From positions 124,001 through 188,000 of the forward strand of contig JACDNV010000004.1 in the NCBI GenBank assembly GCA_017656425.1: a DNA stretch of 64,000 bases. The letters run 5' to 3'. The notes beneath the pieces are model-generated. The model worked only from the letters and a program-made list of their open reading frames with translations, did not search any database and was not told where the DNA came from. Source of the stretch: Candidatus Neomarinimicrobiota bacterium (GTDB lineage Bacteria > Fidelibacterota > UBA2242 > B5-G15). How positions within the stretch are numbered: the stretch's first letter is position 1; each line of letters opens with the position of its first letter. Position numbers and translations under genes: made by a program. Below are positions 38,647 to 47,831 of this stretch, piece after piece.

Positions 38647-39108
38647 TTATTTGAAATCCGAAATCAGAAAACTTCTCTCTTTTCTAACAGCGGATCCAAA
38701 AACGCCATAAGCTCCTACAACACCTGAAGCATCCATTTCTTTTACAACATAATTGTAATAATTTTCATCAAAAGCAACTACCTCAACTCTAATAGAATCA
38801 TCGGTTTCAATTACTTCAGAATTAATGATATAGAAGTTCACATACAAAGTTTCATCTATCACCGGTAACCAGTCACCGGACTCTTCTTTTTGAGAAACAA
38901 TTAATGAATAAGCCTGCGTACCTTCCCTAGAATCCCAGCTAATTTTCAAATTATCGTTCATTGTTATATCAAAATCTTTTGGTACCTTCGTTACTCCAGT
39001 TATAGTATCCCCCTCTTGTGTCAATAATAGTAAATTATATGTTGAATCTGGTAAAATCTTAAGTGAATCGGTATAGTAATTGTAAAGAAATACTAACCTC
39101 CTCTTGAC
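38647..39108 (-). pseudogene. 5'-truncated gene remnant, DUF4249/fibronectin-III-like C-terminus
   Basis: The frame is open from a TGA at 39109-39111 down to the stop at 38647, but it lacks an ATG or GTG; only an internal TTG at 39022-39024 could start it. The upstream part still reads as protein (KILPDSTYNLLLLTQEGDTI), then TGVTKVPKDFDI and a beta-rich domain with NLKISWDSREGTQAYSLIV. This looks like the C-terminal half of an exported DUF4249-like or fibronectin-type protein whose signal peptide and N-terminus are gone. The break lies about 165 bp from the left inverted composite repeat, so rearrangement there is the probable cause. Domain naming is tentative. Confidence 0.6.
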
Positions 39109-39273: not shown

Positions 39274-39401
39274 GTCATTGCAAGGAATCCCATTGGGGCG
39301 ACGAAGCAATCATCTATGCAAGTAGTAATATAATTAAAACATACTGTTATCAGCTCAAACACAACAGATTGCCACGCTCGCTTACGCTCGCTCGCAATGA
39401 C
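39274..39401 (-). repeat. Palindromic element copy 1 (128 bp)
   Basis: Starts GTCATTGCAAGG and ends CTCGCTCGCAATGAC, so the ends are inverted repeats of about 30 bp, with inner ends GAAGCAATC and GATTGCCACG. The centre is AT-rich (TAATATAATTAAAACATA). It is read on the minus strand to match the other four copies. Its centre is closest to copy 2 at 46359. It resembles MITE or REP-type non-coding elements. No ORF is inside. Confidence 0.85.
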
Positions 39402-39437
39402 AGGGGCTACTGAAGTATTTACACTAAGTTAATTTTC

Positions 39438-39570
39438 TAGCTGGTTAGCTTGTTAGCCCGTTGTCTGCCAGCTTAATGGCTTGCTAGTCTGACAGCCTGT
39501 TAGCTTGTTGGCTTGTTAGCTTGATAGCCTGATAGCCTGTTAGCTTGTTAGCTTGACAGCCTGTCAGGCC
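39438..39570. repeat. 8-bp-period tandem array 1, consensus TTAGCYTG
   Basis: About 16 degenerate units with an 8-bp step, for example TTAGCTTG, TTGGCTTG, ATAGCCTG and ACAGCCTG. One unit near the start is 7 bp. The step is not a multiple of three, so a coding repeat is unlikely. The inverted copy at about 46250-46325 has about 9 units, so copy number has changed between the two arms. Confidence 0.85.
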
Positions 39571-39580
39571 ACTTACATTT

Positions 39581-39676
39581 TAGCCATCCGGCTATCTAGC
39601 TACCCAGCCATCTAGCTATCCAGCTATCTAGCCATCAAGCTATCCAGCCATCTAGCTATCTAGCCATCTCGCCATC
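39581..39676. repeat. 8-bp-period tandem array 2, consensus YAGCYATC
   Basis: Twelve exact 8-bp steps (96 bp) of units such as TAGCTATC, CAGCCATC, TAGCCATC and CAGCTATC. It follows array 1 after about 10 bp and uses a different consensus with the same AGC core. The inverted copy at 46163-46236 has about nine units. Confidence 0.88.
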
Positions 39677-39735
39677 CCAATAAGATGAGATTGCTTCGCT
39701 CCGTTTCACTACGCTCGCAATGACGGCGGAAATGC

Positions 39736-40522
39736 AAACTGTCTTGCTACCGTTTACAATTACAGGATAAATGGGAAATAATTTAAAAATGTTTATTGGC
39801 TGACTTCATAATTAAATATTACACTTCAAATGATTCTGAACTTGCTTTAAAAGTACAAATCTGATTGTGCAGAATATTTGAAAAAATATAAAGATAACTA
39901 CCTAAATTTTCCTAAATACCCTGATTATATAAAAAATATGTATAAACAACAAATATCGTTTAGTCAATAAACTAATAATTGGAAAGAATGTGGTATAATA
40001 TGAGGGTATTCTGTATCTATGTAAACTTTTTAAATGAACCTTTTTGTACAATTGATAAATCTCCGTGATAACTGGTTAACTAAACATACTTTCATATTTA
40101 AAGGTAAGGCTTATGAACTCAAACAACTCTTTTATATGAAATTCTCTGAAAATGATTATAAACTTAATGTTAGATACAGTTTCTTAGGTAAGTCTCGTCA
40201 TAATATCCCTATCTCTGTATTTATTCCTATATCCCCTCCTCTCTTCTGAACTCTAATATGGGACTAAACCTATATATTTTTCAAATTCTTTATATACTAT
40301 CCTCTACAATGTCTCCTGTATTAATCCCTTTCCCATAGAGATCCTTCGGACATTAACTCCCCATCATTTAATATCACTTCTCGCAATAATCTCTTCGCTT
40401 TACTAAAATGATATTGTTTTTCTTTCTTTGCTATACCTTCCTCCTTTCTTTCTCTTTAACATCTTTTTTCCTAATTCAAGGAGTATATGGCTTTTTATTT
40501 CCGTTACCATTTTTATACAAAA
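39736..40522. other. Non-coding stretch with decayed coding remnants
   Basis: About 790 bp between the left repeat and the patatin gene. On the plus strand, 39796-39970 reads as coding-like peptide in two frames (LADFIIKYYTSNDSELALK, then KSDCAEYLKKYKDNYLNFP), joined by a frameshift near 39855 and closed by a stop. A 71-codon frame at 40034-40249 (NWLTKHTFIFKGKAYELKQL) could be another fragment. I recognise neither. The rest (40250-40522) is T- and C-rich on the plus strand with no gene. Confidence 0.4.
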
Positions 40523-41455
40523 TTATGAATACAATCTTTCAATTTCAGTTAAGGCCTTAATTGCAGATTCTTCACCCGCTTTAATAATATCTTTAGCTCT
40601 ATAAAATTCTAAAAGACTATACTCTTCAACCGAAGGTGATATTAAAATATCCGGTTTCCATAACAAAAGCTGTAAAGCTTGCAGTTGAGTCTCAAATATA
40701 ATTATCGTTTGTAGAAGAATTTTTAAAAGATTTGGTTGTTTGTAAATTTTCCTTGACCTTTCATTTTTGAGATTTATTGTTTCTCCTTCTTCTTTATCAT
40801 TAAAGAAATTTAGTTGCTTAAGAAACTGTTCTTTTGATACAGATAGAAATTTATTAAGAATATTTTGCCTATCATGATTTTTTAGCTTCCAGTATTTTTC
40901 GGGATTTGGTATAGCATTCACTGCGATTATAATATCGGCATTGTTTTCATATGCAACACTAACGGGTAATGGATTAACCAATCCTCCATCGACGAGCAGC
41001 CTCTCCCGGTACTTTACGGGCGTAAATAAAATAGGTATTGCAATACTTGAAAGTATAGCATCAACCAGTTTACCACTATTTAGTACTATCTCAGTTCCAT
41101 CACTAAGATCAGTTGCAACAGCGCTATATGATATCGGCAGCTGTTCAATTTCTTTTTCGTTAAGGTGATTACTAATGAAATCTCTGACTCTGTCTATATT
41201 GACGAACCCGCTTTTTTGCAATCCAGGGGTAAATGTTTTTACTACAAACCTTTTGTCCACTTGTAATGCTATTTCTCCCATAAGCTCAGCAGAAAAACCG
41301 GCTGAGTAATATCCTCCTACAAAAGCTCCCATGCTAGTTCCAACTACAATATGAATTGGAATCTTATTTTTTTCCAGTACTTTAATGACCCCGATATGAG
41401 CTAATCCCCTCGCTGCTCCGCTACCTAATACCAGAGCAATCCTTGGATTCTCCAT
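40523..41455 (-). CDS. Patatin-like phospholipase, RssA type
   Basis: Cytoplasmic or membrane-associated lipid acyl hydrolase of 310 residues. The oxyanion loop GSGAARGLAHIGV, nucleophile Ser41 in GTSMGAF and catalytic Asp156 in VDGGLVNPLPV form the complete Ser-Asp dyad. The C-terminal 110 residues are less conserved and contain helices (LLKILLQTIIIFETQLQALQ). It overlaps the upstream GT2 gene by 31 bp, so the two are translationally coupled, and it is the last gene of the TetR-linked cluster. It would deacylate a phospholipid or glycolipid. The substrate is unknown. Confidence 0.9.
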   Translation of the reverse strand: MENPRIALVLGSGAARGLAHIGVIKVLEKNKIPIHIVVGTSMGAFVGGYYSAGFSAELMGEIALQVDKRFVVKTFTPGLQKSGFVNIDRVRDFISNHLNEKEIEQLPISYSAVATDLSDGTEIVLNSGKLVDAILSSIAIPILFTPVKYRERLLVDGGLVNPLPVSVAYENNADIIIAVNAIPNPEKYWKLKNHDRQNILNKFLSVSKEQFLKQLNFFNDKEEGETINLKNERSRKIYKQPNLLKILLQTIIIFETQLQALQLLLWKPDILISPSVEEYSLLEFYRAKDIIKAGEESAIKALTEIERLYS

Positions 41456-42147
41456 AATATTCTCCCTATCATATTCCGGATAATTATTAATATTAAAAAA
41501 TAATTTTTTATAACATGTCTACTTATTTGCAACGCCTCATGAAAGTATGAGTATGCGGCTCTATTTGTTGAGTACTTGTCAAATTTTATCAAATGCTTTA
41601 AACCCCATAAATGTACAATCTTAATTTTTTTATTATTTGCTCTATAATAAAGATTTATGATAGTTTCAACACCATACCCAGTATTCATTATTTTATCTAC
41701 TATGTGAATTATGTCTTTTCTAAGAACAGCTCTCTCGCCGGACAATGGTTTCAATGGATTGAACAATTTATTAAAAATACTTTCTGTCGGCTGCCCTATA
41801 ACCATATCGGCTTCTTCCTTGAGGAGTGGCTGAATAAGCTGAACAATATATCTTTCTTTAAAATTTACCAGATCAGCGTCGACAAAAACCAATATATCCC
41901 CATGTGCTTCAACTATTCCAACAGACATGGCATAACCTTTCCCTCTATTGTAAGGGAATTCGATTACTTTTACCTTTGGCTCGTGTAAGAAATTTTCAAG
42001 AACTTTTCCTGTATTGTCAGTAGATCCATCATTTATTACAATAATTTCGTCAATGTAATGCGAGTTTATTAGTCCTTTTAATGTTCCTGGAAGAGTAACT
42101 TCCTCATTATGTGCGCAAACGATTACCGTGATGTTTGAGTTATTCAT
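41425..42147 (-). CDS. Family 2 glycosyltransferase, DPM1/polyprenyl-phosphate type
   Basis: GT-A glycosyltransferase of 240 residues. ITVIVCAHNEEVTLPGTLKG, IIVINDGSTDNTGKVL and ILVFVDADLVNF give the nucleotide-sugar site and the metal-binding DAD. Size and sequence resemble polyprenyl-phosphate or glucosyl-3-phosphoglycerate-type enzymes. A single amphipathic or membrane helix may be near the C-terminus (YFLILIIIRNMIGRILW). It is 26 bp downstream of the radical SAM gene and overlaps the patatin gene. A lipid acceptor is plausible but not shown. Confidence 0.88.
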   Translation of the reverse strand: MNNSNITVIVCAHNEEVTLPGTLKGLINSHYIDEIIVINDGSTDNTGKVLENFLHEPKVKVIEFPYNRGKGYAMSVGIVEAHGDILVFVDADLVNFKERYIVQLIQPLLKEEADMVIGQPTESIFNKLFNPLKPLSGERAVLRKDIIHIVDKIMNTGYGVETIINLYYRANNKKIKIVHLWGLKHLIKFDKYSTNRAAYSYFHEALQISRHVIKNYFLILIIIRNMIGRILWRIQGLLWY

Positions 42148-42173
42148 AAATATATCCCTTTGTAAAAACGGTT

Positions 42174-43622
42174 TTAATTTTCTTCTCTATATAGATAATT
42201 CCAGATGGGATCTAAAAGTTTTGCTACTTCGTTATCATATTCAATCATTCCATTGTAATAATTATCATCTTTTAGCGATTCTTCGGCTGAACGGTATCCA
42301 GGTTTCGCTTTTGTTTCTAATAATACTTTCCTGGCTTCATCATAGTGGTCTCTTATAAAACATGGTCTTATTTCGTTACCCCTGGTTGCCGGGGGTAACA
42401 TATAATTATACGATCTTTGCCATTTTCTTATTTCACTGAATAAATTAGAAAATAATGCATCAGTTAAACTTTTCCCCTTAGTATATAAGTCATTGATATT
42501 ATCTACCCAGTAGGGAACAAATACACACGGATATATATTTCCATTCCAATCTATGTATAAATATCCCCCTGACCTACCAGCTGCAATACAGCCCGATGAG
42601 AATGTTCCTCCATTCCAGAAATCGGCTATAAACCTTCTTTCTTTCCTTACAAAATGCTGCTCTTTTTCCCACATATTTTTTCTCTTCTCAGGCGGGACTT
42701 GCCACGATATATCGACACCTCTACCAATCGGCATATATTGAAAAATCCACATATATGAAGCACCCTGTTCATCTAAATAAAATTTTATCATCTCATCTGA
42801 TATAATTTTTTCACAATTTTCCTTTGTTGCGGTTACAGAAATACCAAAAGGGACACCGACATCTCTTAAGTTTTTAAAAGCATTTAATATTTTTTTAAAG
42901 GTTCCTTTCCCTCTTCTTTTATCAGTTTCTTCTTCAAAACCTTCCACAGAGATAGCTGGTGTAATATTTCCGACTTCAGCTAACCTTTGCGAAGTAACTT
43001 CATTAATCAATGTTCCATTTGTATATACCAAGAAATATTGATTATTATATTTTTTGGCAATTTCGATAATATCGGTTTCGTTATCTTTCCACATAAATGG
43101 CTCTCCACCTGAGATAACTGTAAACCACGTTCCCCACTTTTCATATTTTTCCTTCAGTATTTTTTCAACAACATCAGCAGAAAGCGATGGTAATCCTTTT
43201 GGCAAACTTGCAGCATAGCAATCCTTGCATTTCAAATTGCATTTACCTTCAGGTGATATCACCAAAAAACCAGGAGGATTAATTTTGTACGTCTTGATAA
43301 ACTCATTCTTAATTTTTCTACTACCGAATCCCAGGAACCCTTTTATGAATACATTAATAATGCTATTTCTAACTCCAGGTGAACCATTCTTGTATGCTTT
43401 AAGCGCGCTTCTTATTACATTCATTGCAATGTAAAACTTGTCTTCTCTCTCTCTTTTTGGCCCCATGGTTACTGAATTTCCCAGGTTTACCATAAAAAAA
43501 TAAGCAAGTTTCTCAACCAAAGGAATAGTAATTGCAGATCCAATTTTAGATGATAGAATGTAAAGGCATGGTTTAAGGAGGTTGTAAGTCAAGTTTGTTC
43601 TAACGCATTTAGGTATTCTCAT
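42174..43622 (-). CDS. Radical SAM protein with SPASM-like C-terminus
   Basis: A 482-residue radical SAM enzyme. The [4Fe-4S] cluster cysteines are Cys128, Cys132 and Cys135 in KCNLKCKDCYA. Next come TVISGGEPFMW, the SAM-binding SGGEP block, and AISVEGFEEETDKRRGKGT. The C-terminal part has GCIAAGRSGGYLYIDWNGNI followed by YPCVFVPYW, and a later cysteine in IRPCFIRDHYDE, which fits an auxiliary-cluster (SPASM/Twitch) domain. An N-terminal extension of about 110 residues with hydrophobic patches precedes the barrel. It is the first gene after the TetR regulator, with a candidate operator between them. Its reaction is unknown; neighbours suggest a lipid or glycolipid substrate. Confidence 0.9.
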   Translation of the reverse strand: MRIPKCVRTNLTYNLLKPCLYILSSKIGSAITIPLVEKLAYFFMVNLGNSVTMGPKREREDKFYIAMNVIRSALKAYKNGSPGVRNSIINVFIKGFLGFGSRKIKNEFIKTYKINPPGFLVISPEGKCNLKCKDCYAASLPKGLPSLSADVVEKILKEKYEKWGTWFTVISGGEPFMWKDNETDIIEIAKKYNNQYFLVYTNGTLINEVTSQRLAEVGNITPAISVEGFEEETDKRRGKGTFKKILNAFKNLRDVGVPFGISVTATKENCEKIISDEMIKFYLDEQGASYMWIFQYMPIGRGVDISWQVPPEKRKNMWEKEQHFVRKERRFIADFWNGGTFSSGCIAAGRSGGYLYIDWNGNIYPCVFVPYWVDNINDLYTKGKSLTDALFSNLFSEIRKWQRSYNYMLPPATRGNEIRPCFIRDHYDEARKVLLETKAKPGYRSAEESLKDDNYYNGMIEYDNEVAKLLDPIWNYLYREEN

Positions 43623-43666
43623 TTTTGCCTCATCTATTATATTATTTCCAGTAAATCATAGAACGT

Positions 43667-43691
43667 TCGACCATTATATTCAAACGGTCGA
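43667..43691. promoter_or_regulatory. Candidate TetR operator O1, upstream of radical SAM gene
   Basis: Inverted repeat TCGACC, 13-bp spacer, GGTCGA. It lies 45 bp upstream of the radical SAM start and 18 bp after the TetR stop. The same TCGACC-N13-GGT layout, with a shared TCAAA before the right half, occurs at 44319-44343 upstream of the TetR gene. That makes autoregulated TetR binding the likely explanation. Confidence 0.6.
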
Positions 43692-43708
43692 TTTTTTGTC
43701 AAAAAAAT

Positions 43709-44290
43709 TTATTTTTTTGTTATTCCATGCATAATAAGTTTTAAAACATTATCAATTTTTTCGCTTGATAATTTGAATCCATTTGAAAGTTGAGACTGTA
43801 TTTCCAAGCCTTTTATTGTAAAGAAAATTGAGTCTACAACGGATTCAATATTGTTTATAAGAAATTTACCTGTTTTTATTCCCTCCTCAACTATATTTCT
43901 TAAAACCATTATTTCTTCTTCTTTAATTTTTTCTATAACCCCTTTTAAGAATACGTATTCATTTGAATATTCATTTAGAATCACACTATATAAATTATTA
44001 AATTCTTTTGCTCCATTAATTTTTGTAATGGTATAGAGATAGATTTTCCTCTCTGGTTCAGCTACGGCATTTATTGATTTAAGAATCCTCTGCTTTAACA
44101 TATAAAATTCTTTTTCTATTACTGCTTTAAATATGTCATTTTTACTTTTAAAATAGTGATATATAGTACTTTTAGCTTTACTAACAGAATTTGCTATGTC
44201 CCACATAGTTGTTTTCTTAAACCCGAATTTTGCAAAAATTTTACGGGATGTTTCTACAATATTTTTTCTAATTTCGTCATTAGTTCCCAT
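43709..44290 (-). CDS. TetR/AcrR family transcriptional regulator
   Basis: A 193-residue one-component regulator. The N-terminal helix-turn-helix is clear: KFGFKKTTMWDIANSVSKAK followed by STIYHYFKSKNDIFKAV. The ligand-binding C-terminal domain (about 60-190) is all helical with no recognisable ligand motif. It is 86 bp upstream of the radical SAM gene on the same strand. Two candidate operators with identical spacing flank it (43667-43691 and 44319-44343), so it probably represses itself and the radical SAM-GT2-patatin genes. Fatty-acid-like ligands are common in the family, which is only a hint here. Confidence 0.92.
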   Translation of the reverse strand: MGTNDEIRKNIVETSRKIFAKFGFKKTTMWDIANSVSKAKSTIYHYFKSKNDIFKAVIEKEFYMLKQRILKSINAVAEPERKIYLYTITKINGAKEFNNLYSVILNEYSNEYVFLKGVIEKIKEEEIMVLRNIVEEGIKTGKFLINNIESVVDSIFFTIKGLEIQSQLSNGFKLSSEKIDNVLKLIMHGITKK

Positions 44291-44318
44291 CTCAGCTAAA
44301 TTTCCATATTCTAAATAT

Positions 44319-44343
44319 CGACCAAAAGCGTCAAATGGTATTG
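44319..44343. promoter_or_regulatory. Candidate TetR operator O2, upstream of tetR
   Basis: TCGACCA, then TCAAATGGT, with the same 13-bp spacing between TCGACC and GGT as O1 at 43667. The outer three bases of the right half (ATT) do not match the palindrome. It lies 29 bp upstream of the TetR start codon, a usual autoregulatory position. Confidence 0.5.
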
Positions 44344-44516
44344 CAATATAATATTTTTTACTAATGAAGTCAATGATCTTTTTATTTCCATCTGCTCACT
44401 CCACGTTTTTCTCCAGATTTAACGATAGCTGCTCAAGTATGCATGATAAACAGTTTCTAACAGGGATAAAAGCTCTAACAACTACATTAGAACTTAAAAA
44501 CCCGCATTTGTAAGTT

Positions 44517-46105
44517 AATCTTTAACTCGGGAGGATTTACGTAATAGGGATATTGATATTTAGTTTATCAAGGAGTTTTTCTGTTTTTTTGTCGATTTCA
44601 GCTATTTTCCATTTGTTGTTGATTTTTACTTTTCTTATCTCAGAAAGATGTAAGAGCACATCATGGACTGAATATCTCGATAGAAGTTTTTTTCTCAATA
44701 GTATTTGATATATCTTATAATACCATTGCAAAGCAATCGTGTTGATAAAATTCCAACCTTCAAGTGATTCTTCATTTTGCATATAGGTACGGTCTGCTTC
44801 CAGTAGATTTTTAAATACATCGAACATTTGCTCAACACTACTTCTACTTTTGTAAAACTGAAAAATCTCTTCTGCAGATTTAGAAGTGCAGTTGCTAATT
44901 ACTGAAAGCGTTCCAAAATAATGTTGTTTTTCATAGAATTTATCAATGTGATACTCTTCAGGATGAGTTTCTATGCGGGTTAAATAATCTTTCTCTTCAA
45001 CGCTTTTTAAATGTTCATCCAGATATATATAAACTGTTCTGGAGGAGAGAGTAGATTTAGAATACCAGATAAAACGTTTTTTATATTTAAAATATCCATC
45101 CATACAACGTTTATCACCACTTTTTAAGCAACTGTAATCTATAAGTATGCTATTCCTTTTCAGTGGAATAATATATTGAAGTTCATTCTCCTCCATTTGG
45201 TTAACGTTATCCTCAGAATAAAATCCTTTATCGGCAATAATAACCGCATCTCTGGCGCCACTTTCTTCAATACATAATTTAAAAGCACTTATCTCACGCA
45301 CATTACCAGGAGTAATACGATAGTAAACCGGCATGTGATTTTTTACGGAAAAAATAAAAAGTAAGTTTACCTGTGGAAGATATACCCTCTTATTGTTATA
45401 ACCGTATTTTGAAATAATGATATTCTCTGACTGTGTGAATAACGGTGTAGCATCTATCAGAATGTGATCACCTTCAGATATAAAATCTTTAAAATACTTT
45501 ACTATTTCACTGCGCATAATACCCAACTCTCTAAGAAATTTACTAATCCTTTTCTCTGTTATCTTAATATTAGCAAAAATCTCAGAGAGAAAACTATGTT
45601 GATGATGAAAAGGCATATTCTTTATATGAGACCGGTGAAATAATCTGTAAAAGGCAAGGGCTACTATGAATTGCCACTCATCTATAAAATAATTCTGAAG
45701 ACTCCTTATCGAATCAGTCATGGAGTCTAATATGAACTTGCTGGCGCCATATTCTTTTACCTGAAGAGATATAATAGAAGGAGTTGTTTTCTCTAATTTC
45801 CTCTTAGGAGATTCAATAAAACCCTCTGGTGTGATTTTACCAATAATCTTCCCCGTTTTCTTTTTAGGTTTTTTCTTCTCAGGATCCCAGACACACTTGA
45901 CTTCATAGAGGTAATAGTTACCGTTAATTAGTCTTAGTTCAGTACCTTTGCGTTTATGTTTTAGAGCCCATTCAGGATGCCTCATGATATACCGTATATA
46001 CGTAATATGTATATAGCATATTACAAGGTCTAATGCAAGCATTTTCAGACGAATAATCAATTCTTTACTGAAAACTATTACGTATTTTGAGCAGAGTTAG
46101 AGATT
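44517..46105 (-). mobile_element. IS4/IS1634-like insertion sequence, about 1.59 kb
   Basis: One transposase gene bracketed by imperfect terminal inverted repeats of about 31 bp. The left end reads AATCTTTAACTCGG, and the inverted right end reads AATCTCTAACTCTG; the inner parts share TACGTAATAG. The transposase stop codon lies inside the left repeat. No convincing target-site duplication was found on either side, so one flank may have been deleted after insertion. The right end lies 24 bp from the right composite repeat. Confidence 0.8.
44537..45985 (-). CDS. DDE transposase, IS4/IS1634-like
   Basis: Catalyses cut-and-paste movement of the surrounding insertion sequence. About 482 residues from the ATG at 45985 (MRHPEWALKHKRKGT); the frame is open to 46060 but the extra 25 residues look non-coding. 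The N-terminal region with NYYLYEVKCVWDPEKKKPKK is typical of COG5421-type transposases. Catalytic residues are visible as Asp in ILIDATPLF, Asp in VIIADKGFYSEDN and Glu in YKSRSSVEQMFDVFK, the last giving the Y-x2-R-x3-E-x6-K signature of the IS4 superfamily. The protein is full length without stops, so the element may still be active. Confidence 0.9.
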   Translation of the reverse strand: MRHPEWALKHKRKGTELRLINGNYYLYEVKCVWDPEKKKPKKKTGKIIGKITPEGFIESPKRKLEKTTPSIISLQVKEYGASKFILDSMTDSIRSLQNYFIDEWQFIVALAFYRLFHRSHIKNMPFHHQHSFLSEIFANIKITEKRISKFLRELGIMRSEIVKYFKDFISEGDHILIDATPLFTQSENIIISKYGYNNKRVYLPQVNLLFIFSVKNHMPVYYRITPGNVREISAFKLCIEESGARDAVIIADKGFYSEDNVNQMEENELQYIIPLKRNSILIDYSCLKSGDKRCMDGYFKYKKRFIWYSKSTLSSRTVYIYLDEHLKSVEEKDYLTRIETHPEEYHIDKFYEKQHYFGTLSVISNCTSKSAEEIFQFYKSRSSVEQMFDVFKNLLEADRTYMQNEESLEGWNFINTIALQWYYKIYQILLRKKLLSRYSVHDVLLHLSEIRKVKINNKWKIAEIDKKTEKLLDKLNINIPIT

Positions 46106-46162
46106 GATATTCGGGTAATCCCAATTAGTGTGAAACGGAGCGTGGTAATCTCATCTGATTGA

Positions 46163-46236
46163 GATAGCTAGATGGCTGGATGGCTAGATAGCTGGATAGC
46201 TAGATGGCTGGGTAGCTAGATAGCTGGATAGCTAAG
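46163..46236. repeat. 8-bp-period array 2', inverted copy
   Basis: About nine 8-bp steps of units such as GATAGCTA, GATGGCTG and GGTAGCTA, the reverse complement of array 2 (consensus YAGCYATC). Unit order matches the left array closely, but about three units are missing. It therefore arose from a common ancestor by unit loss or gain. Confidence 0.85.
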
Positions 46237-46249
46237 AGGTAAGTGATCT

Positions 46250-46325
46250 AACTGGCTGTCACGCTATCAAGCTAACAAGCCAGCAAGCTAACAGGCTAAC
46301 AGGCTAATAAGCTAACAAGCCAGAG
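46250..46325. repeat. 8-bp-period array 1', inverted copy
   Basis: About nine 8-bp steps such as CAAGCTAA, CAGGCTAA and CAAGCCAG, the reverse complement of array 1 (consensus TTAGCYTG), against about sixteen in the left arm. Confidence 0.83.
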
Positions 46326-46358
46326 AAGTAACTTGGTGTAACTACTTCAGTAGCCCCT

Positions 46359-46489
46359 GTCATTGCGAGCGGAGCGTAAGCGAGCGTGGCAATCTATTAT
46401 GTTTGAGCTGATAATGATATGTTTTAATTATATTCCTACTTGCAAAGAAGATTGCTTCGTCGTCCACGTTATGGACTCCTCGCAATGAC
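46359..46489 (+). repeat. Palindromic element copy 2 (131 bp)
   Basis: Begins GTCATTGCGAGCGGAGCG and ends CTCCTCGCAATGAC. The inner TIR ends are GGCAATCT and AGATTGCTTCG. Within the right TIR is a small hairpin, GTCCACGTTATGGAC, also present in copy 4. The AT-rich centre matches copy 1. Confidence 0.87.
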
Positions 46490-46722
46490 ATGTGGTTATT
46501 ATCATGGGTTAAGCGTGGAAAAGAAATAATAAATAATATCAGTATTCTTAGTGTCCTTTGTTAGAAAAAATCTCTTAGTGTCCTTGGTGAGACGCAGTCC
46601 GGCTTGCCAGCTTGCTCGCTAATAAAAGTTCGAAGTTCTACGTTCTATTTTCTGTGTTTGTATAGTTATAACATTGAACTTTATAACGTTGAACATTGAA
46701 CTTTCTTAACTTAAATCCTAAT
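46490..46722. other. Short spacer with small direct repeats
   Basis: No gene is visible. CTTAGTGTCCTT occurs twice, about 25 bp apart, near 46548-46585. TTGAACTTT and related ATAACGTTGAAC units recur at 46672-46705. GTTGAACTTTCTTAA also follows the decayed paralogue near 47609, so this sequence seems to have been duplicated with the coiled-coil gene. Confidence 0.5.
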
Positions 46723-47055
46723 TTAACCTTTAAAGAAGGCAAAGAGTATCCCTATGATGGCACCAATCTGCCCAACCCAAAAGATAAACATCCATTTGAT
46801 CAGTTCTGATTTTACTTTCTCATCGTTGGTTTTCAGGGCTTCGATTCTCTCGATGAGTTCAGTTTTAACTTCGGCAATTTCTACTCTTACCTTAGCCAAT
46901 TCTTCGGAGAGTCTTTTTTCGAATTTTTCTTCGACGAATTGGATTACGTTGTTTTTAGTTTCTTTCTGTGCTTCGTTTATAAGTTCGACTAAAGCTTCTA
47001 TGCCGTCATCCCCGAGTTTTTCTCTTAAAGGCTTTTTAACTGTTACAACAGGCAT
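46723..47055 (-). CDS. Small coiled-coil protein with C-terminal membrane helix (DUF1640-like)
   Basis: A 110-residue protein. A short N-terminal segment (VVTVKKPLREKLGDDGIEAL) leads into a long charged coiled coil (about residues 25-85, with repeated Glu/Lys/Leu) and one transmembrane helix (KWMFIFWVGQIGAIIGILFA). It resembles DUF1640/CCDC90-like proteins, which recur in many bacterial drafts as small multicopy genes with no established role. A decayed paralogue lies at 47640-47831 with three palindromic elements between them. Being found with repeats suggests that it may travel with mobile or selfish elements, which is inference. Confidence 0.75.
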   Translation of the reverse strand: MPVVTVKKPLREKLGDDGIEALVELINEAQKETKNNVIQFVEEKFEKRLSEELAKVRVEIAEVKTELIERIEALKTNDEKVKSELIKWMFIFWVGQIGAIIGILFAFFKG

Positions 47056-47131
47056 TTCGACCTCAATAGTTAATGCAACTTAAATATACTAATTCTCAGA
47101 TATGGTTGCAAGTGTATGGGGATTATCTTCC

Positions 47132-47262
47132 GTCATTGTGAGCGAGCGTAAGCGAGCGTGGCAATCTATTTTGTATAAGCGAAGTAGTGTATATTTATAG
47201 CTTCAATCATTTTATAAAGCAGATTGCCACGTCGCTCACTAACGTTCGCTCCTCGCAACGAC
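47132..47262 (+). repeat. Palindromic element copy 3 (131 bp)
   Basis: GTCATTGTGAGCGAGCG at the left, CTCCTCGCAACGAC at the right, inner ends GGCAATCT and AGATTGCCACG. The centre (TTTTGTATAAGCGAAGTAGTG) resembles copy 5 rather than copies 1, 2 and 4. The small internal hairpin seen in copies 2, 4 and 5 is not preserved here. Confidence 0.85.
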
Positions 47263-47271
47263 GTGTCGATT

Positions 47272-47393
47272 GTCACTGCAAGCGATAGCGAAGCAATCTG
47301 TTATGCTTTAGTTGATAACGGTATGCTTTAATCGTTATTCCAACTGCAAAGTAGATTGCTTCGTCGTCCACGTTATGGACTCCTCGCAAAGAC
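47272..47393 (+). repeat. Palindromic element copy 4 (122 bp)
   Basis: GTCACTGCAAGCGATAGCG at the left, CTCCTCGCAAAGAC at the right, inner ends AAGCAATCT and AGATTGCTTCG. It carries the GTCCACGTTATGGAC hairpin. The centre (GTTATGCTTTAGTTGATAAC) resembles copies 1 and 2. It lies 9 bp after copy 3 and 8 bp before copy 5. Confidence 0.85.
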
Positions 47394-47401
47394 GTAGCCC
47401 T

Positions 47402-47530
47402 GTCATTGCGAGCGTATTGAAACGGAGCGAAGCAATCTCTTTTGTGTAGTCGAGGTAGTGAACATTTGAAACCTCAAGCGTTTAGCAAAGTAGATTGCTT
47501 CGTCGTCCCAATGGGACTCCTCGCAACGAC
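47402..47530 (+). repeat. Palindromic element copy 5 (129 bp)
   Basis: GTCATTGCGAGCGTATTG at the left, CTCCTCGCAACGAC at the right. The right arm hairpin is GTCCCAATGGGAC, a paired change relative to GTCCA/TGGAC in copies 2 and 4. The left arm shares GAAACGGAGCGAAGCAATCT with the half element at 39687-39724. Confidence 0.85.
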
Positions 47531-47639: not shown

Positions 47640-47831
47640 GTTCCGTAATTTCCACTTCAATCTTATTTAGGTTATCCATGAGTCTTTGTTCAAATTTTTT
47701 TGACGAATTTGAGAGTATCATTTTTGATTTTTTACATTTAGTTGTTCAGTTCTATTAGAGCATAAACGCCATCATTTCCTAATTTTTTCTCTTAATGATT
47801 CTTAAACACTTACAACTGATATTTGAAACAT
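47640..47831 (-). pseudogene. Decayed paralogue of the coiled-coil membrane protein
   Basis: Translating the minus strand from the ATG at 47829-47831 gives MFQISVVSV, a stop, then ESLREKI, and, after frame changes, coiled-coil fragments comparable with VVTVKKPLREKLGDDGIEAL of the intact gene at 46723-47055. Further on, KFVKKFEQRLMDNLNKIEVE-like residues match its EKRLSEELAKVRVEIAEVK region. At least one stop and two frameshifts are needed, and the membrane helix is missing. It is a clear relic of a duplication. Confidence 0.7.

Follow-up and report, generated by a model that had tools for sequence, protein, structure and literature searches.

The intergenic mosaic elements of Neisseria (NIMEs) are built of dRS3 ends, which are REPs of the CGTC type, and RS elements or cores, and their arrays are the repeat class found most commonly at rearrangement borders in that genus (PMC3898611, PMC9778887). 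The CGTC-tagged REPs form the families CGTC-1 to CGTC-4, which include dRS3, RPE-4 and RPE-6 (PMC3733652). Contiguous 7-bp units are used by the ribbon-helix-helix (RHH) ParB of pSM19035 (PMC9499535). Here, we report a composite repeat in which REP-like ends are joined to arrays of octamers, found in a Candidatus Neomarinimicrobiota bacterium.

The stretch analyzed (64,000 nucleotides, positions 124,001 to 188,000 of contig JACDNV010000004.1, assembly GCA_017656425.1; hereafter the window) belongs to a genome of 2.8 Mb in 50 contigs (G000; its contigs are given as C-numbers). Within the family, the only sister genus in the comparison was represented by G001, a 350-contig assembly. Two copies of the repeat, referred to as the left and right arms, enclose a 6.4-kb segment of the window. 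We think it likely that the arms are two members of a dispersed intergenic mosaic repeat family, that such repeats give portable homology for gene exchange, and that the 6.4-kb segment lies between the arms by chance.

The composite unit and its two arms

An initial, sequence-only reading had described the arms as inverted composite repeats in mirror order, and this was borne out. The left arm (39274-39724, + strand) and the right arm (46130-46489, - strand) each carry an element, array 1, a linker, array 2 and a half element (Table 1), and the left arm and the reverse complement of the right arm align collinearly as one piece, from the element by way of the spacer, array 1, the linker and array 2 to the half element (blastn E value, 4.8e-84; 73% counting gaps), so that their relatedness runs through all modules and beyond the short element. 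Ungapped pieces of the two arms are 85-90% complementary, exact inverted matches reach 46 bp at most (at 39591), and the arms differ by base changes, by indels (mostly of whole octamers) and by truncation of the right half element, which lacks its final ~15 bp. The GC content of the arms is 45-46%, versus a window mean of 32% and 26-35% in the inner genes. On the right, the arm is part of a larger cluster, in which additional REP ends continue as far as 47530. A 5'-truncated gene had also been reported on one flank; it exists (38647-39024, TTG start, no family match) but lies ~250 bp away from the arm, which therefore does not cut it directly.

Table 1. Features of the two arms, the segment between them and the adjoining repeat cluster (window coordinates)
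Feature	Coordinates	Strand	Remarks
Full element of left unit	39274-39401	+	End type A 39274-39312 (+), ~53-bp core, end type B 39366-39401 (-)
Left array 1	39444-39563	-	~15 octamers, RGCYAACA on - strand, one register break
Linker between arrays, conserved	39564-39581	+	Consensus about AGACCAYTTACCTCTY, from comparing copies
Left array 2	39582-39677	+	12 octamers RGCYATCY
Left half element	39688-39724	-	One REP-like end, type B
Decayed sequence	39725-40522		First ~61 bp also flank a C14 unit copy (93%)
Patatin-like phospholipase gene	40523-41455	-	RssA-like, below NCBIfam cutoff
Family 2 glycosyltransferase (GT2) gene	41425-42147	-	
Radical SAM/SPASM protein gene	42174-43622	-	
TetR-family regulator gene	43709-44290	-	
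IS1634-family insertion sequence	44518-46105	-	Transposase 44537-46060; end coordinates approximate
Right half element	46130-46151	+	~15 bp lost near IS end
Right array 2	46162-46233	-	9 octamers RGCYATCY on - strand
Right array 1	46254-46323	+	~8-9 octamers RGCYAACA on + strand
Full element of right unit	46359-46489	-	Type B end 46359-46395 (+), type A end 46449-46489 (-)
LA_3696-family coiled-coil/TM gene	46723-47055	-	
Extra REP-like ends, same mosaic	47132-47530		47132-47167 (+), 47221-47262 (-), 47402-47438 (+), 47492-47530 (-)

The REP-like ends (26-45 bp) stand as inverted pairs around ~50-bp cores, and in the 128-bp element a type A end (GTCATTGCGAGGAG-N-CGACGAAGCAATC) and a type B end (GTCATTGCGAGCGAGCGTAAGCGAGCGTGGCAATC and variants) face each other with their heads outward. 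The ends have a 5-bp outer stem (ATTGC/GCAAT) with an internal loop, or a weaker one. In the stretches read, 43 of 45 ends begin with a C/TGTC head (TGTC, 28; CGTC, 15), and the remaining 2 have AGTC. Elements like the left full element occur on C11, C14 and C31 of G000 and on C11 of G001. A pattern for the REP-like ends matched 54 of 245 phylum genomes, while a reversed control pattern gave 0; ends of one kind are thus spread over roughly one in five genomes of the phylum.

Array 1 reads (RGCYAACA)n on the other strand and array 2 reads (RGCYATCY)n; both arrays therefore consist of one octamer type, RGCYANCN, pointing away from the linker. The two 8-bp arrays noticed initially thus exist, but rather than being unrelated they are built of one octamer type running in opposite directions. 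Runs of four such octamers were found in 2 of 245 phylum genomes, both belonging to this family. An Rfam scan of the window matched nothing, and RNA folding of the arrays gave z values of -4.6 (left) and -1.4 (right), so that no consistent structure is claimed for the arrays.

Dispersal of the unit and blocks bounded by repeats

The unit is not confined to the two arms. With the left arm as the query, G000 gave 30 matches (C2, C4, C11, C14, C27, C31 and C32) and G001 gave 10, and whole or partial units lie in about ten clusters of G000, in either orientation and often several per locus; copy numbers in G000 (from similarity searches and reading of individual stretches) are minimum values because several contig ends lie in or near repeats. 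A similarity search of 40 relatives (G001 included) found the unit absent from the 39 others. A scan of GTDB contigs (own genome left out) for the linker pattern returned three single, chance-like matches, a search of a phage collection matched nothing, and literature searches by end sequence and octamer sequence returned nothing relevant.

The order of the modules is identical on C2, C14 and C31. Full units are those of C2, C14 and both window arms, near-full or truncated ones stand on C31 and C32, and on C27 and C11 arrays and elements occur apart from one another. The unit is also repeated, truncated and rearranged on C14, C27, C31 and C32, with tandem units on C14, two direct copies 9.8 kb apart on C31 and four arrays inside 3.4 kb on C27. 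Clusters of repeats lie in intergenic regions (C27, C31, C14 and window 46130-47530). Given a unit dispersed in this manner, a pair of inverted copies 6.4 kb apart calls for no particular explanation, and the closeness and orientation of the two are therefore not a cassette signature.

Some blocks bounded by repeats are far more similar than core genes. C27 of G000 and C274 of G001 have in common a block, consisting of a REP end, an AAA_14/DUF4143 gene and array 1, that is 92.7% identical over 1,572 bp and ends inside repeats on either side (the AAA_14/DUF4143 gene alone, 95.8%), and C11 of G000 and C242 of G001 share several pieces at 86-95%, against 65-79% for core genes of the two genomes (mutS, an RRM gene and other core loci). 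C274 and C242 are short contigs that may have been misbinned, with a relative of G000 as their true source; the argument would then be weaker, so the high-identity blocks are evidence but not proof of exchange. Within G000, window 46876-47167 matches C27 at 97.6% over 292 bp and then drops to 83%, in the region of the LA_3696 coiled-coil gene; all four LA_3696 copies found in G000 adjoin REP mosaics. From these comparisons, repeat-bounded blocks look as though they were exchanged between loci and genera, and the composite repeat seems to provide the common homology through which small gene blocks are swapped.

In each unit, REP-like ends (C/TGTC-ATTGC...GCAAT-C) paired around a ~50-bp core are followed by the opposed octamer-array module and a single closing REP-like end. 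In the model that we propose, copies of this unit may have been spread by an enzyme or by recombination and would then offer portable homology to RecA-type recombination, through which neighboring small genes (AAA_14/DUF4143 ATPases, LA_3696 coiled-coil, toxin-antitoxin and four-helix genes) could be exchanged, duplicated and rearranged. The analysis tied no enzyme to the REP-like ends. A RAYT appears to be a poor candidate for the mobilizer: the sole Y1_Tnp-type match in G000 sits within an 817-aa frame on C5 and is not known to adjoin REP-like ends. A Mutator-family transposase lies near the C32 unit copy.

Several other features were recorded around the repeats. The other LA_3696-family genes of G000 (C27:191-634, C4:189534-189806 and, at a contig end, C31:11559-11756) belong to a family with a promoter-like upstream region in common and a varying number of internal coiled-coil repeats; within the phylum, the family was found in G000, G001 and G033 only (3 of 149). 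A decayed second copy of this type (window ~47647-47824, - strand; 67% DNA match to the intact copy) lies beside the REP cluster. In both genera, AAA_14/DUF4143 ATPase genes recur between REP or other repeats (L024:970-2160, L026:1517-2833, L073:230-1426 and L075:2132-3451), as do toxin-antitoxin-like pairs and four-helix (23S IVP) proteins. A second dispersed repeat, consisting of arrays of AGTTCAACGTTCGACGTT-like units, often lies beside REP clusters (L026:1-3300, L075 and window 46640-46720). At the end of C2 (L021:11770-12170), a tRNA-like gene precedes degenerate copies in tandem that share a TCCCGGAGGGATCCCTATGGGA insert.

The octamer arrays, the inner segment and alternative explanations

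A rather unlikely alternative is that the octamer arrays are predicted binding arrays of a DNA-binding protein (e.g., RHH, parS-like) dispersed over the chromosome by the REP-like ends. The core C (128/128) and core G (126/128) of the array 2 octamers are nearly invariant, and homologous arrays differ mainly at octamer positions 1, 4, 6 and 8, a nonuniform spread over the eight positions (P of 0.004 for array 2 and 0.001 for array 1, disjoint array pairs) that, at the level of sequence, fits constraint on a binding core but to which shuffling and expansion of octamer variants could also contribute. Plasmid matches came only from Arsenophonus and Providencia, with (AGCTAACA)n and (AGCTATTA)n arrays beside parA; in an Arsenophonus plasmid the AGCTAACA octamer, in opposed layout, adjoins parA, an RHH-like gene (weak, E value of 0.007) and repA, and the same octamer lies beside parA in Providencia plasmids. 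By analogy, these plasmid arrays look like a centromere-like array, and the RHH ParB of pSM19035 recognizes arrays whose units are 7 bp long (PMC9499535). Against the binding reading, neither a ParA nor an RHH gene was recognized among the examined genes beside arrays in G000, unrelated viral contigs also carry similar octamer arrays, and of two control octamers, one returned a similar number of matches (3); for these reasons, the likeness to plasmid partition is a lead only, and convergence may explain it. A Providencia plasmid stretch (L104:1780-3159) with parA, a small downstream gene and three kinds of AGCTANNA octamer arrays on either side looks like a partition locus.

A fuller version of the binding reading is unlikely, by our estimate slightly more so. 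It would make the octamer arrays putative protein-binding arrays, centromere-like or nucleoid organizing, that came from a plasmid partition system and were copied chromosome-wide inside REP-bounded units, giving many parS-like sites that would double as exchange points for small genes.

We also doubt that the 6.4-kb segment forms a cassette able to move or invert, with the composite arms as its terminal inverted repeats, as the sequence-only reading had proposed, and regard this as improbable. The decayed sequence, the TetR gene set and the insertion sequence said to lie between the arms are present, and the insertion sequence and decayed sequence, the collinear inverted arms with their 46-bp exact match, and an inner set without a high-similarity match in G001 (neither the radical SAM nor the GT2 gene has a close copy there) would all suit a cassette. 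On the other side, the arms belong to a family found at about ten loci, the space between them holds no integrase or invertase (the sole recombinase is the IS transposase), and no target duplication was seen at the arm flanks. Nor are the inner genes tied to the arms: TetR, radical SAM, GT2 and patatin genes are a recurrent set in relatives (e.g., C17 of G004, and G036), where they lie in other places without arms, and patatin homologues in G004, G015 and G016 likewise lack arms. What survives of the cassette proposal is that the repeats are mobile-looking composites and that blocks bounded by them look exchanged.

Inversion of the 6.4-kb segment through the arms is possible, though neither an empty site nor the other orientation was seen in the genomes compared. 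In G001, the sites that could show an empty or inverted state are lost at contig ends, one contig stopping within mutS and another ~200 bp upstream of where the RRM gene aligns. Within the decayed region, ~100 bp (40112-40210) match C11 of G001 at 74%; a 71-aa open frame there (40034-40249, + strand; no family match) is broken in the G001 match. We read the segment as a resident lipid/envelope-like gene set plus an insertion sequence that happen to lie between two inverted units.

It is very improbable that composite transposition or an IS1634-mediated rearrangement built the structure and carried the arms along. The IS1634 copy does lie next to the inner edge of the right arm, on the side where the half element of that arm is truncated, but the IS1634-type element is single copy in G000, so that there is no IS pair for a composite transposon, and other unit copies lack IS1634. 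The ends of this IS have AATCT-TAACTC and TACGTAATAG in common as inverted repeats. An integron-like array of gene cassettes with attC-type sites can be all but dismissed: small genes (toxin-antitoxin, four-helix proteins) do lie between palindromic repeats, but units occur in either orientation and GTTRRRY-type core sites were not seen by eye.

Comparison with described systems

The dispersed mosaic repeat that we favor shares with MITEs and composite transposons its noncoding, dispersed nature and inverted ends, and differs from them in that neither a target duplication nor a parent transposase was seen and the insertion sequence is single copy. Its octamer arrays resemble the parS arrays of pSM19035 in being contiguous short direct repeats with a conserved core at several sites per genome; here, however, the unit is 8 bp rather than 7 bp, the arrays are chromosomal and without adjacent parA/parB, and binding is only putative. 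Were the opposed octamer module bound by a protein, it would represent a new type of dispersed array in chromosomes.

With the CGTC-tagged REPs, the ends described here have in common a C/TGTC head, a stem starting with AT and an arrangement as inverted dimers. No dedicated transposase is known for those REPs, and the ends described here may likewise have none. They differ in their 5-bp outer stem with an internal loop (published stems are 8-9 bp with a loop of 4-5 nt), in a CT tail instead of CCA and in being joined to octamer arrays.

Among described systems, NIMEs come closest, both in their layout and in the effect on rearrangement and exchange proposed for them. Both systems have short inverted tagged repeats around cores of 50-150 bp, form intergenic clusters with a mosaic structure and are tied to rearrangement and to the exchange of adjoining genes. 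The locus had at first been thought to match no described element; NIMEs do have its general plan, but no description of the inverted octamer module was found in the literature. The ends here are GTCATTGC...GCAATC, whereas those of NIMEs are dRS3 (ATTCCC-N8-GGGAAT), copies are far fewer, and descriptions of NIMEs include no module of two opposed octamer arrays; since the end sequence and the octamer module differ, we do not class the repeat as a NIME. The comparison suggests that a bacterial family with sparse sampling has a mosaic system resembling NIMEs, and it offers a testable case of dispersed intergenic repeats serving as portable homology for gene exchange between genera.
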